The translations under genes and the position numbers were made by a program. The notes below the pieces were generated by a model. The model worked only from the letters and a program-made list of their open reading frames with translations. It had not been told where the DNA came from and ran no database searches. From contig JADMXW010000007.1 of the NCBI GenBank assembly GCA_015548865.1, positions 156,358-220,357 of the forward strand: a stretch of DNA of 64,000 nucleotides. The letters run 5' to 3'. This document shows, piece after piece, positions 51,908 to 55,384 of this stretch (positions are counted from its first letter, which is position 1; the number at the start of each line of letters is the position of its first letter). The DNA is from Serratia marcescens (GTDB lineage: Bacteria; Pseudomonadota; Gammaproteobacteria; Enterobacterales; Enterobacteriaceae).

Positions 51908-51939
51908 TCAGGCTGACGATCCTCTGACAATGTTGTCAG
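51908..51939 (-). promoter_or_regulatory. Composite 32-bp motif A, probable response-regulator site
   Basis: On the plus strand: TCAGGCTGACG, five bases, CTGACAATGTTGTCAG. Motif B at 55353 has the same two blocks at the same spacing (10/11 and 15/16 identical). It lies in the last codons of the sensor kinase gene and 67 bases before the exported flavodoxin. GTCAG on the leftward strand recurs at an 11-base step, as in OmpR/PhoB-type sites. Confidence 0.7.
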
Positions 51940-53377
51940 CTGGCTCAGGCAATGAAATTCCCTGACTGATATCTGAAATCAGTCTCTTGCTTCGGTTAAT
52001 ATCAGGCGGTATGGCAAAGGTCAGTCCAAACGTGTTGATGCCGTTCTCGCTGTGAGCAAAGACATCCCCGCGGTGCATGATCGCGACGGCGCGTACGATC
52101 GATAATCCCAGCCCGTGATGGGTATCGCTCTTGGCACGAGAGGAGTCGACCCGATAAAAACGTTCAAAGAGCCTGTTTAAATGCCCCGGTTCGATGGGAT
52201 CGCCTGGGTTTGAGACCGCAACGCAGGCATGATTATTTTTTTCGCTCAACCTTATGGTAATCGTGCTTTTGAGTGGTGAATGTCTTGCGCTATTTTCCAG
52301 TAAATTGGCGAGAGAGCGGTGGAATAACCGCCGGTCAATGCGGGCTATCACATCCCCCTCGACGTTCAGTGAAAGCTGTTTTTCTGCAAATGAGGGTTCG
52401 ACATATTCTGCCGTTTTAAGCGTTTCTTCGCGTAGCGAGACCTGCATCAGTTGAGATGCATGTTCACCCGCGTGCGCATGGGACAGGAAAAGCATGTCGT
52501 TAACGATGGATGCCATGCGCTCAAGTTCTTCGAGATTTGAACCCAGTAACTCTTCCAGTTCATCATGCGAACGTCGGCGTGATAGCCCTAATTGCGTTTG
52601 ACCAATCAGGTTCGTGAGCGGTGTGCGAAGTTCATGAGCGACATCAGCATTAAAACTTTCGAGCTGTCGCCAGGCTATCTCCTGACGCTCCAGTACACCG
52701 TTAAATGATGATGCCAGTTGTTGTAATTCTTCGGGTAATGAGATGGTATCCAGCCGCTGACCATGATCTCCCGGTGCGAGATGTTTAGCCTGTTTACTGA
52801 GTTTCCCCACCGGACGCAGACCGATTCTTGAAACCATATATCCAATCAATGCCACGATAAGGACACCCAGTGCAGCAATAATAAGCAGTGTGTGCGTGAA
52901 CGCGTCCAGCGTGCCCATATAGGGTGTGGAGTCGATGGCAACGACATAGCGCACTTCCGGCCTTTCACCGTTGGCAGGGAGCGTTTTTACCAACAGGAAG
53001 AGTGAACATGCACCTTGCGCTGCTCCGGGCATCTTGTTAAAGCCTTCTTGCAAAGAAGACCACTGAACCCCCAAGGGCGGAGCCCCTCCCATACTAAAAC
53101 GTGGATTATCGCTCACTATCCAGTAGCGAACGCGTTCGCCTTCAGAATTGGCTAAGACGGTGAACTTATTCGCCAGCGCAGACCAGCCATCCGCGGAGGC
53201 ACGTGCTGAGATCCACGGGCTCATCAATGATTCCCGAAATAACAGCTCGTTGTGCATCTGTTTTTGCAGCGAGTCGTGCAATGAACTTCTTAGCAAAATA
53301 CCGATAACGGAGACAATCAGAAATGCAGATAATGCAAACATCAGCGCCAAATGAAGTGAGATGGAGCGTTTAAGCAT
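51908..53377 (-). CDS. Sensor histidine kinase, heavy-metal/CusS-like family
   Basis: A 489-residue membrane kinase with two membrane helices (about 8-30 and 160-182) enclosing a periplasmic domain of about 130 residues, then HAMP, an H-box (FNADVAHELRTPLTNLIGQ), N-box (NLLENSARHS) and G-box (HHGLGLSIVRA). The overall design is that of CusS/YedV-type sensors of copper or periplasmic oxidative stress; no obvious metal-binding cluster stands out in the sensor domain. AAAGGGG upstream supports the start MLKRSISL. It follows its response regulator by 15 bases. Its 3' end contains motif A. Confidence 0.9.
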   Translation of the reverse strand: MLKRSISLHLALMFALSAFLIVSVIGILLRSSLHDSLQKQMHNELLFRESLMSPWISARASADGWSALANKFTVLANSEGERVRYWIVSDNPRFSMGGAPPLGVQWSSLQEGFNKMPGAAQGACSLFLLVKTLPANGERPEVRYVVAIDSTPYMGTLDAFTHTLLIIAALGVLIVALIGYMVSRIGLRPVGKLSKQAKHLAPGDHGQRLDTISLPEELQQLASSFNGVLERQEIAWRQLESFNADVAHELRTPLTNLIGQTQLGLSRRRSHDELEELLGSNLEELERMASIVNDMLFLSHAHAGEHASQLMQVSLREETLKTAEYVEPSFAEKQLSLNVEGDVIARIDRRLFHRSLANLLENSARHSPLKSTITIRLSEKNNHACVAVSNPGDPIEPGHLNRLFERFYRVDSSRAKSDTHHGLGLSIVRAVAIMHRGDVFAHSENGINTFGLTFAIPPDINRSKRLISDISQGISLPEPADNIVRGSSA

Positions 53378-53392
53378 GCTTACCCCTTTCAT

Positions 53393-54073
53393 TTACTCGA
53401 CCCTGACTTCGAGTACGTATCCCATACCGCGTACGGTATGCAGCAATTTAACGTTGAATGGGGCATCAACCTTGGCCCGCAGGCGTTTAATGGCAACCTC
53501 AACCACGTTGGCGTCGCTGTCAAAATTCATGTCCCACACTTGCTCGGCGATCATCATCTTTGACAGAATTTCCCCCTGATGGCGTGCCAGCAGGCTTAAT
53601 AAAGAAAACTCTTTTGCCGTCAATTCCAGTCGCGCTCCGGCACGAAATACCCGACGTGCCAGCAGATCAAGATGCAGATCGTGAATTTGCAACTGCGTGA
53701 TATCAGCGCCATCCGTTGAACGGCGACGCACAAGCGCCTGAATGCGCGCCACCAATTCAATGAGCGAGAAAGGTTTGGGGAGGTAGTCATCAGCGCCAAG
53801 CCGAAGTCCTTTGACCCGCTCGTCGACCGATCCCCGTGCAGACAACATCAACACGGGCGTCTGTTTACTGGCTCGTAGGCCTTCCAGAACCCGATAACCA
53901 TCCATTCCTGGCAGCATCACATCGAGGATTATCGCGTCGTAGTCAAATTCCAGCGCGTAATGCAGGCCTTCGCTTCCATCCGCAGAAACATCTACCGTAA
54001 ACCCGGACTCACCCAGTGCACGATTGAGATAGGTTGATGTTTTTTCTTCATCCTCGACTAATAACAGGCGCAT
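53393..54073 (-). CDS. OmpR-family response regulator, CusR-like
   Basis: A 226-residue regulator: receiver domain with acidic residues in [13 protein letters not shown], phospho-accepting Asp in [13 protein letters not shown] and Lys in [13 protein letters not shown]; then a winged-helix DNA-binding domain ending [14 protein letters not shown]. The N-terminal [19 protein letters not shown] is typical of the CusR/CopR/HprR group. It is co-transcribed with the kinase. Tandem half-sites with 11-base spacing in motifs A and B are what such a protein would bind. Confidence 0.93.
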
Positions 54074-54088
54074 AACGTGATTCCCTCA

Positions 54089-55276
54089 TCAGCTGTTCAA
54101 CGGTGCTTCCACATCTGAATAAATCTGTACTGAATCCGGTAACCGTTGACCCCGGAGGGTAATAGCGTCCAGTGAGTGGGTGAGGTCATCCATTTCGGAA
54201 GGTGTCAGTGAGAGACTGGCGGCCGCCGTGTTTTGCCGCATGTGGTCTTTGTTTGTGGTTCCTGGGATCGGGACAATCCACGGCTTGCGAGCCAGTAACC
54301 ATGCCAGCGCGATCTGGCCTGGAGCCGCATTTTTTTTCTCAGCCCATGTTTTCAGTAATTCCACTAGCTGTAGGTTGTGTGAAAGGTTGTCGGGAGCAAA
54401 GCGAGATTCTGTCGCACGGAAATCGCCCGCAGCGAAACGGGTGTTTTTATCAATCCAGCCTGTTAAGAATTGCACGCCCAATGGACTCCATGGCACAAAC
54501 CCAATGCCGAGATCTTCACATGTGGGAAGCACCTGTTTTTCTGGGCCTCGCCAAAGCATTGAGTATTCGCTTTGTACCGCTGTTACCGGCAATGCGGCAT
54601 GTGCCCGCTTTAACGTATCAATCCCCATTTCTGATAGGCCCCAGTGCAGAACCTTTCCTTGATCCATTAAATCTTTAATAACACCTGCCACATCTTCAAT
54701 CGGTACCTGAGGGTCAACGCGGTGCTGATACAGCAAATCAATACGGTCGGTACGAAGACGTTTGAGCATATTCTCGACGACCTGTCTGATATGCTCAGGT
54801 CTGCTGTTTAGACCCGGTAAACGCTGCCCCGTCTGCTGATCGATGTTCCAGCCAAATTTCGTCGCAATCACTATCTTGTCCCGGAAAGGTGCTACGCCTT
54901 CACCCAGAATTTTCTCCACCTCAAAAGGACCATAAGCTTCAGCCGCATCGAAAAATGTCACACCTTCATCAAATGCCTGGCGGATAATGCTCACCATTTC
55001 GGGACGCCACGGAACCGACGTGTCGTATTTTCGGCTCATGTTCTGGACGCCCAAACCAACGGCAGACACTTCAAGCTTGCCGAGAGTCCGTTTTCCCGGT
55101 GAGGCCGAGTGCTGATTGCCTTGTATAGATGAATCACCAAGAGACGGCTTTCCGGTTGCTGAGGCGTAGGGAATCAGTGATGCTGCGGCGAAACCCGCAC
55201 CAGCCACTAACAGCTTGCGCCGTTCTGGCATTGCCGGGGTGTTCTCCTCAGGTTCAAGCTTGGTTTTACTTCTCAT
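54089..55276 (-). CDS. Exported aldo/keto reductase
   Basis: A 395-residue aldo/keto reductase with an N-terminal export signal: [23 protein letters not shown] (about 18-40), a double-arginine signal consistent with Tat export of a cofactor-bound enzyme. The catalytic domain begins at about residue 62 ([15 protein letters not shown]); Asp and Tyr lie in [11 protein letters not shown], Lys in IATKFGW and His in LLYQHRVDP. Few aldo/keto reductases are exported, and an NADPH source in the periplasm is not obvious, so the electron donor is an open question. It may form an operon with the response regulator 15 bases on. Confidence 0.88.
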
Positions 55277-55352
55277 TGGTCGCTCCTTTTCTCAGCAGAT
55301 TGAACATAAATGTCATTTGACTTGGGCCCATTTTGCGCCTTGCATGCCGACA

Positions 55353-55384
55353 TCAAGCTGACGGTTGCCTGACAATGCTGTCAG
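55353..55384. promoter_or_regulatory. Composite 32-bp motif B, probable response-regulator site
   Basis: TCAAGCTGACG, five bases, CTGACAATGCTGTCAG, matching motif A at 51908. It is 76 bases before the exported aldo/keto reductase and 143 before the divergent hydrolase. Further CTGACA half-sites occur at 55412 and 55444. Confidence 0.72.

Follow-up and report, generated by a model that had tools for sequence, protein, structure and literature searches.

Which regulator reads the near-identical sites that stand before genes for exported redox proteins in Serratia marcescens, and what does it control? We analyzed a 64,000-nucleotide stretch of this genome (GenBank assembly GCA_015548865.1, contig JADMXW010000007.1, positions 156,358 to 220,357 of the forward strand), hereafter the window, which encodes a two-component system among such genes. 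A note made from the letters alone, the original prediction, had placed one copy of a 32-bp composite motif before an exported flavodoxin operon and another before the gene of an exported aldo/keto reductase (AKR). The sites, designated operators A, B, and C, are very probably those of the response regulator (RR) encoded between A and B, which would drive an autoregulated class II activation with a redox output in the cell envelope. Sequences, positions, conservation, genome-wide specificity, and phylogeny were computed; from these we infer binding, activation, the signal, and the roles of the enzymes.

Structure of the operators

The two composites, at 51908-51939 and 55353-55384 in plus-strand coordinates, were found where they had been predicted, with 0 mismatches to the pattern. 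When the window was shuffled 100 times, the mean number of matches with up to 3 mismatches was 0.00. As reported, the copies share 25 of the 27 bases in the two blocks, GTCAG recurs at 11 bases, and the copies stand 67 and 76 bases, respectively, before the flavodoxin gene (start at 51840) and the AKR gene (start at 55276). All five spacer bases had been said to differ; four of them do.

Since the genes served lie on the minus strand, the composite is best read there, as CTGACA-N4-TGTCAG-N5-CGTCAG. Each copy is the upstream part of an operator with four half-sites, which extends by one more 11-bp step to half-site 4 and is followed by a -10-like hexamer (Table 1). The architecture is that of one inverted half-site and then direct half-sites at exact 11-bp steps. 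The first 16 bases of the composite form an inverted repeat of the CusR/HprR type, and the remainder is a direct-repeat tail in phase with it, as in operators of the AgrR/CusR type. The 6-4-6 inverted repeat with TKACA/TGTMA half-sites is exact in operators A and B, and the sequence TGACAACATTGTCA within copy A fits exactly the published CusR core, quoted in PMC11195947 as TGACAAnnTTGTCA. The original prediction had taken the 11-base recurrence for the layout bound by OmpR-type regulators. The tail agrees with this view, but the core is an inverted repeat and not a direct repeat alone; a plain OmpR-type direct repeat was rejected because the first half-site pair is inverted.

Two sites had been claimed, and the window contains three. 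Operator C lies 114 bases 5' of the start of a divergent hydrolase gene and was overlooked because its second half-site is TGTTA, in place of TGTMA. Its pattern occurred exactly in 0 of 2000 shuffles of its region. Among the 14 loci with a divergent hydrolase gene, it was exact in 12 and had one mismatch in 2, and TAnnnT-like hexamers were present at the same offset in the loci carrying it.

Promoter anatomy

Two exact operators of the window and 35 of its relatives, 37 unique sequences in all, were aligned on the first half-site. A TAAAAT-like -10 begins at offset 48, with A at offset 49 in 33 operators and T at offset 53 in 34. Both bases of the hexamer at offset 48 were present together in 33/37, and between offsets 36 and 69 the count was otherwise at most 5, except for 17 at offset 51. 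Among distant family members, the hexamer occurred at offset 48, in the direction of the tail, in 28 of 31. If this hexamer is the -10, the -35 region would be flanked by half-site 3, at about -40 to -36, and by half-site 4, at about -29 to -25. A scan for sigma-70 consensus promoters gave none at operators A, B, and C. The fixed -10 offset, the tail abutting or covering the -35 region, and the lack of a good -35 make the anatomy of class II activation most likely.

Conservation and genome-wide specificity

It had been proposed to ask whether the motif precedes homologues of these genes in related genomes. For this check, 112 loci encoding relatives of the regulator were collected and the best upstream palindrome was sought in each. 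A palindrome with at most 1 mismatch was present in 86 loci, and the 26 others were dropped. The close group (regulator identity of 72% or more) comprised 27 sites, 26 of them unique, the window's own included, and the distant group comprised 59; the loci are related, partly from the same species, and the operator rows are accordingly not independent. In the close group, the third half-site stood at the 11-bp step 5' of the regulator operon in 25 of the 26 unique operators. Scored as GTMA on the regulator side, it was found 0 or 1 times at any other step from 6 to 23, and on the non-regulator side at most 2 times at any step. One close locus (L076), with no palindrome inside its truncated upstream sequence, stands outside this count. 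In the distant group, 31 operators (32 with a looser score) had the third half-site at step 11 on the far side and 5 had it on the regulator side, and a fourth half-site at step 22 was seen with the looser score in 6/26 close and 26/59 distant operators. An exact scan of 28 relative loci (432,196 bases) for the composite gave 35 matches at step 11; among the other steps from 5 to 23, there were 4 at step 5, 2 at step 13, 1 each at steps 14 and 17, and 8 at step 22, which is the next half-site, and none at the remainder.

In the host genome (5.39 Mb), the pattern TGACAN4TGTNAN7GTCA occurred exactly four times, three times at the operators of the window and once before a PcoE-like gene, an identity assigned by eye. 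This fourth site lies on a 4.5-kb contig (C46; L159:1501-1525), 3' of a pcoS-like kinase gene and 5' of the PcoE-like gene, the same arrangement at a kinase 3' end as that of operator A. Allowing one mismatch added 6 sites, as against 7 for a reversed-pattern control, and these were treated as chance. An off-step control, with the pattern one base short, gave 0 exact sites and 5 at one mismatch. The palindrome alone, with at most 1 mismatch, was found in 20 places compared with 8 in the control, with one exact copy at G000:C63:123196.

Furthermore, 27 exact sites were found in the genomes of eight relatives, and 26 of them precede the regulator operon, exported redox genes, or genes of DUF1471 stress proteins; the reversed pattern gave 0 sites and a 12-bp step gave 3. 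Absence of the motif before orthologues, the outcome that would have refuted the original prediction, was thus not observed. By neighbor, they stand before the regulator operon (7), the hydrolase gene (6), the operon after the kinase gene (5), a pair of cupin and CMD genes (2), DUF1471 genes (6), and cusC (1). The DUF1471 proteins concerned are exported and YdgH/BhsA-like, and in one genome (G152) a 78-codon frame separates the site from the gene. In another (G153), the DUF1471 site is more than 300 kb from the regulator; the regulon is therefore not only local. DUF1471 proteins have been tied to acid and oxidative stress (PMC9769812, PMC4092069).

Overlap with the kinase gene

The original prediction held that one copy overlaps the 3' end of the kinase gene, with coding sequence doubling as promoter. 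Copy A indeed lies wholly inside the gene end and ends on the stop codon, but the overlap is not required. In 16 of the 22 clade loci scored, an operator with at most 1 mismatch was found at or near the kinase 3' end. In ten of these 16, as in the window, the last base of the kinase stop lies 30 bases past the operator start; in three the stop codon itself is the TGA of the first half-site, and in three the operator lies 17, 21, and 150 bases past the stop. Coding constraint as the origin of operator A was rejected, as the operator occurs inside, at, and beyond the kinase stop. Selection acts on the DNA site, and the kinase tail follows from it. At L080:9174 the operator has decayed (3 mismatches) and the kinase tail peptide is retained; this tail is a fossil of the former overlap.

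Regulator and kinase

A CusR-like regulator encoded between the two copies had been named as the natural candidate. The resemblance to CusR holds at the level of the family, and the interpretation was supported, but the protein belongs to a separate clade and is neither CusR nor HprR. It scored 273.9 bits against the CusR model NF007346 (cut-off 420) and 268.3 bits against the HprR model NF008567 (cut-off 353), below both. In a tree of 112 rows, from which L037 was left out, it fell in a 29-row clade (support 100/100) with members from Enterobacterales, Pseudomonas, and Bordetella, and E. coli CusR and HprR grouped in a 53-row sister group (support 100/93). The His/Met-rich periplasmic stretch of E. 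coli CusS, which matters for metal sensing, is a gap in all 11 clade kinases aligned. It is missing from the window kinase, whose transmembrane segment also contains no Cys, as opposed to two in that of HprS.

At five loci (L086, L087, L089, L081, and L092), clade members adjoin exported-looking short-chain dehydrogenases, an F420-type oxidoreductase, or an amino acid permease together with an exported-looking methyltransferase. These neighbors are of nominally cytoplasmic enzyme families with signal-like N-termini.

Putative target genes and their products

Domains were assigned with Pfam and NCBIfam (Table 1). On the minus strand the genes follow in the order AKR, RR, histidine kinase (HK), first flavodoxin (FLD1), DUF4405, and second flavodoxin (FLD2).

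Table 1 Operators, promoter elements, and genes of the locus, in window positions.
Feature	Position	Strand	Remarks
Operator A	51903..51938	-	Half-sites: inverted TGACA 51938-51934, TGTCA 51929-51925, CGTCA 51918-51914, GGACA 51907-51903 (weak); overlaps kinase 3' end
Operator B	55348..55383	-	Half-sites: TGACA 55383-55379, TGTCA 55374-55370, CGTCA 55363-55359, TGTCG 55352-55348; 5' of AKR-RR-HK
Operator C	55414..55449	+	Half-sites: TGACA 55414-55418, TGTTA 55423-55427, GGTCA 55434-55438, TGACA 55445-55449; faces hydrolase gene
-10-like hexamer CAGAAT	51885..51890	-	48 bases from start of operator A
-10-like hexamer CAAAAT	55330..55335	-	AKR-RR-HK operon
-10-like hexamer TAATCT	55462..55467	+	Hydrolase promoter
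OmpR-family response regulator (heavy-metal RR subfamily)	53393..54073	-	TIGR01387, 300.5 bits (above cut-off 279.2)
Sensor histidine kinase (heavy-metal sensor subfamily)	51908..53392	-	TIGR01386, 402.7 bits (above cut-off 292.55)
Aldo/keto reductase (AKR), twin-arginine (Tat)-like signal	54089..55276	-	PF00248; signal by heuristic
Exported Flavodoxin_4 (FLD1), Sec-like signal	51184..51840	-	PF12682, E 9e-26
DGFSGAS motif of FLD1	51667-51687	-	Insertion between strand 1 and helix 1
DUF4405 membrane protein, predicted heme b cytochrome	50464..51174	-	PF14358, E 4e-11 (above cut-off)
Second Flavodoxin_4 (FLD2), Tat-like N-terminus by eye	49785..50375	-	Without motif insertion
Exported alpha/beta hydrolase, dienelactone-hydrolase-like, divergent	55528..56577	+	PF01738
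Cytoplasmic-type aldo/keto reductase, DkgA-like	48796..49647	-	Domain matches

FLD1 is a probable candidate for a flavinylated flavodoxin, as the carrier of a flavinylation-like motif. DG[FV]SGAS was present in 5/5 aligned FLD1 orthologues, the insertion was absent from FLD2, and among the non-overlapping window frames of at least 100 codons D..[ST]GA[ST] occurred in FLD1 only. In the AlphaFold model of FLD1 (mean predicted local distance difference test score 78), residues 52-58 lie in a low-confidence loop between a strand (34-40) and a helix (69-81). A distant homologue (L172) has the same motif and stands beside a frame resembling DUF4405 by eye. This motif occurs in Enterobacterales, and the published cases are mainly from Firmicutes (PMC11334425). 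Two further loci (L173 and L174, same order) encode long exported proteins with DELTGAS and DVLSGAS, which are candidate flavinylated proteins. The host genome has one apbE gene, away from the window locus. DUF4405 has nine His residues invariant in 4 orthologues, the conserved ones being placed in membrane helices, and is predicted to be an MsrQ-like heme b cytochrome. Transcription of the flavodoxin operon possibly continues into the DkgA-like gene.

In relatives, the set also includes an exported cupin and a CMD protein, and each group has its own operator in some genomes. In the window the cupin/CMD pair is absent; relatives place it, with its own operator, in the gap between DUF4405 and FLD2 (50376-50463 in the window; L060), and in L059 the pair adjoins DUF4405. 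In a same-genus relative (L067, G149), the AKR, regulator, and kinase genes are split into several frames. A crude signal-peptide rule was positive for 47 of 74 operator-linked genes and 37 of 246 others from the same loci, where the rows are related and the linking is rough. Several cupins and the flavodoxins with Tat-like N-termini escaped the rule, and the linking includes some unrelated neighbors.

Proposed mechanism and alternatives

In the mechanism we propose, the phosphorylated regulator would bind the inverted half-site pair and then the tandem half-sites at 11-bp steps from the promoter-proximal half. As the half-sites of the tail would then abut or cover the -35 region in promoters with a retained -10 and no good -35, the regulator would be a class II activator. 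Operator B would give positive autoregulation of AKR-RR-HK, operator A expression of the flavodoxin-DUF4405-flavodoxin genes, and operator C expression of the divergent hydrolase. DUF4405 would hand membrane electrons to the flavinylated flavodoxin, by analogy to HprR and MsrPQ, and the output of these mostly exported, redox-active products would be reductive repair or detoxification in the cell envelope.

Several observations weigh against this mechanism. Half-site 4 of operator A is weak (GGACA), and a counterpart of operator A is missing or degenerate in 6 of the 22 clade loci. At up to 2 mismatches, the longer pattern is scattered over 20 of 148 genomes and the control has 9 matches; degenerate copies are uninformative. 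Of 295 genomes of the order, 7, among them the host, were found to have a relative of FLD1, and in that sample none of the others belongs to the host's family. Several relatives lack the exported AKR gene between operator B and the regulator, and some clade members have other neighbors (amino acid permease, methyltransferase).

The main rival is copper control or cross-talk, which is possible because members of this family share sites. Here another CusR-family regulator, for example a plasmid PcoR or a chromosomal CusR, would mainly read the operators, and the operon would answer copper or silver instead of redox stress. CusR, CopR, CzcR, and HprR are described as sharing sites and cross-regulating (PMC11195947, PMC8249747), copper as inducing msrP through CusSR (PMC9302797), and the pcoS/pcoE fragment of the host carries the same operator. 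Nevertheless, at E <= 1e-60 the host genome (an assembly of 64 contigs) contains no relative of the window regulator besides itself, the kinase clade lacks the His/Met-rich stretch of CusS, and the 19 clade loci include one cus-like label only, a 42% cusC-type match. We consider this rival unlikely, and copper control as a first reading was rejected, since the kinase and the neighbors do not fit.

That the sites repress instead of activating is less likely still. OmpR-family regulators can do both and the operator overlaps the -35 region, but promoters with a fixed -10 offset and no consensus -35 stand at all three operators, and AgrR, with the same layout, is published as a type II activator (PMC7380067). 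As for a recent duplication without function, the copies are near identical and close together; the spacers and flanks differ, however, and all three positions keep the half-sites and their spacing while other bases vary across species. A duplication artefact was ruled out by this conservation and has a negligible probability. Activation by the regulator encoded between operators A and B is the reading that we retain.

A broader proposal, for which we see about an even chance, is that a distinct CusR/HprR-type clade, with members in Enterobacterales, Pseudomonas, and Bordetella, has an envelope reduction response, and not metal efflux, as its dedicated function. It would serve a second MsrPQ-like path, from DUF4405 to a covalently flavinylated exported flavodoxin, together with Tat/Sec-exported reductases and hydrolases and DUF1471 proteins. 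One operator grammar (inverted half-site, 11-bp direct tail, and -10 at offset 48) would be common to the wider metal-regulator family and give the direction of activation. This grammar is near-constant in the 26 close operators and visible in over half of the 59 distant ones; it makes the activated side of a CusR-type 'palindrome' predictable from sequence. The locus offers a testable regulon for exported enzymes with an unclear electron source, the extracytoplasmic aldo/keto reductase and the flavodoxin, and would tie DUF4405/Flavodoxin_4 electron transfer to a CusR/HprR-type sensor, in parallel to HprR and MsrPQ.

Comparison with known systems

The operator type is not new, as AgrR of Cupriavidus metallidurans shares the 6-4-6 inverted repeat and the in-phase direct repeat; the apparent novelty lies in the regulon and its probable chemistry. 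In the open-access literature searched, we found no description of the gene set of this regulon. Footprinting and promoter mutants showed that AgrR needs both the inverted and the direct repeat, and type II activation, autoregulation, and a regulator of the heavy-metal type are features that the sequence of the window also suggests (PMC7380067). AgrR differs in its silver and other metal targets and in having the direct repeat, located upstream, downstream, or both, at some operators (PMC7380067). In the window system, the third half-site and the distance to the -10 hardly vary, and the putative targets are exported proteins of redox and stress functions.

The E. coli cusC site, aaaaTGACAATTTTGTCATTTTTCTGTCACC, has an identical half-site core, TGACA-N4-TGTCA, with a further TGTCA 11 bp on toward cusC. 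E. coli CusR is reported to control a pcoE-type promoter through TGACAAnnTTGTCAT (PMC11195947). The window system differs from E. coli CusR/PcoR in its separate clade, its score below the CusR cut-off, and the lack of adjacent Cus efflux genes.

For the flavodoxin operon, the closest description is that of Flavodoxin_4 proteins with an insertion between strand 1 and helix 1, which are flavinylated by ApbE, and of DUF4405 as a heme b cytochrome resembling MsrQ (PMC11334425). FLD1 resembles these proteins in the motif insertion and the DUF4405 neighbor. The flavinylated form described there is mainly from Firmicutes with apbE adjacent, whereas FLD1, a putative counterpart, is from Enterobacterales with apbE elsewhere in the genome.

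The nearest functional parallel is HprR, which controls a pair of proteins for redox repair in the periplasm, one of them a heme protein of the membrane. The E. coli hiuH-msrPQ site, caTTACAAAATTGTAATGCTGCTGTAAGG, has the same layout with TTACA/TGTAA half-sites. The window regulator is not an orthologue of HprR, and in place of MsrPQ it has flavodoxin, DUF4405, aldo/keto reductase, and hydrolase as putative targets.

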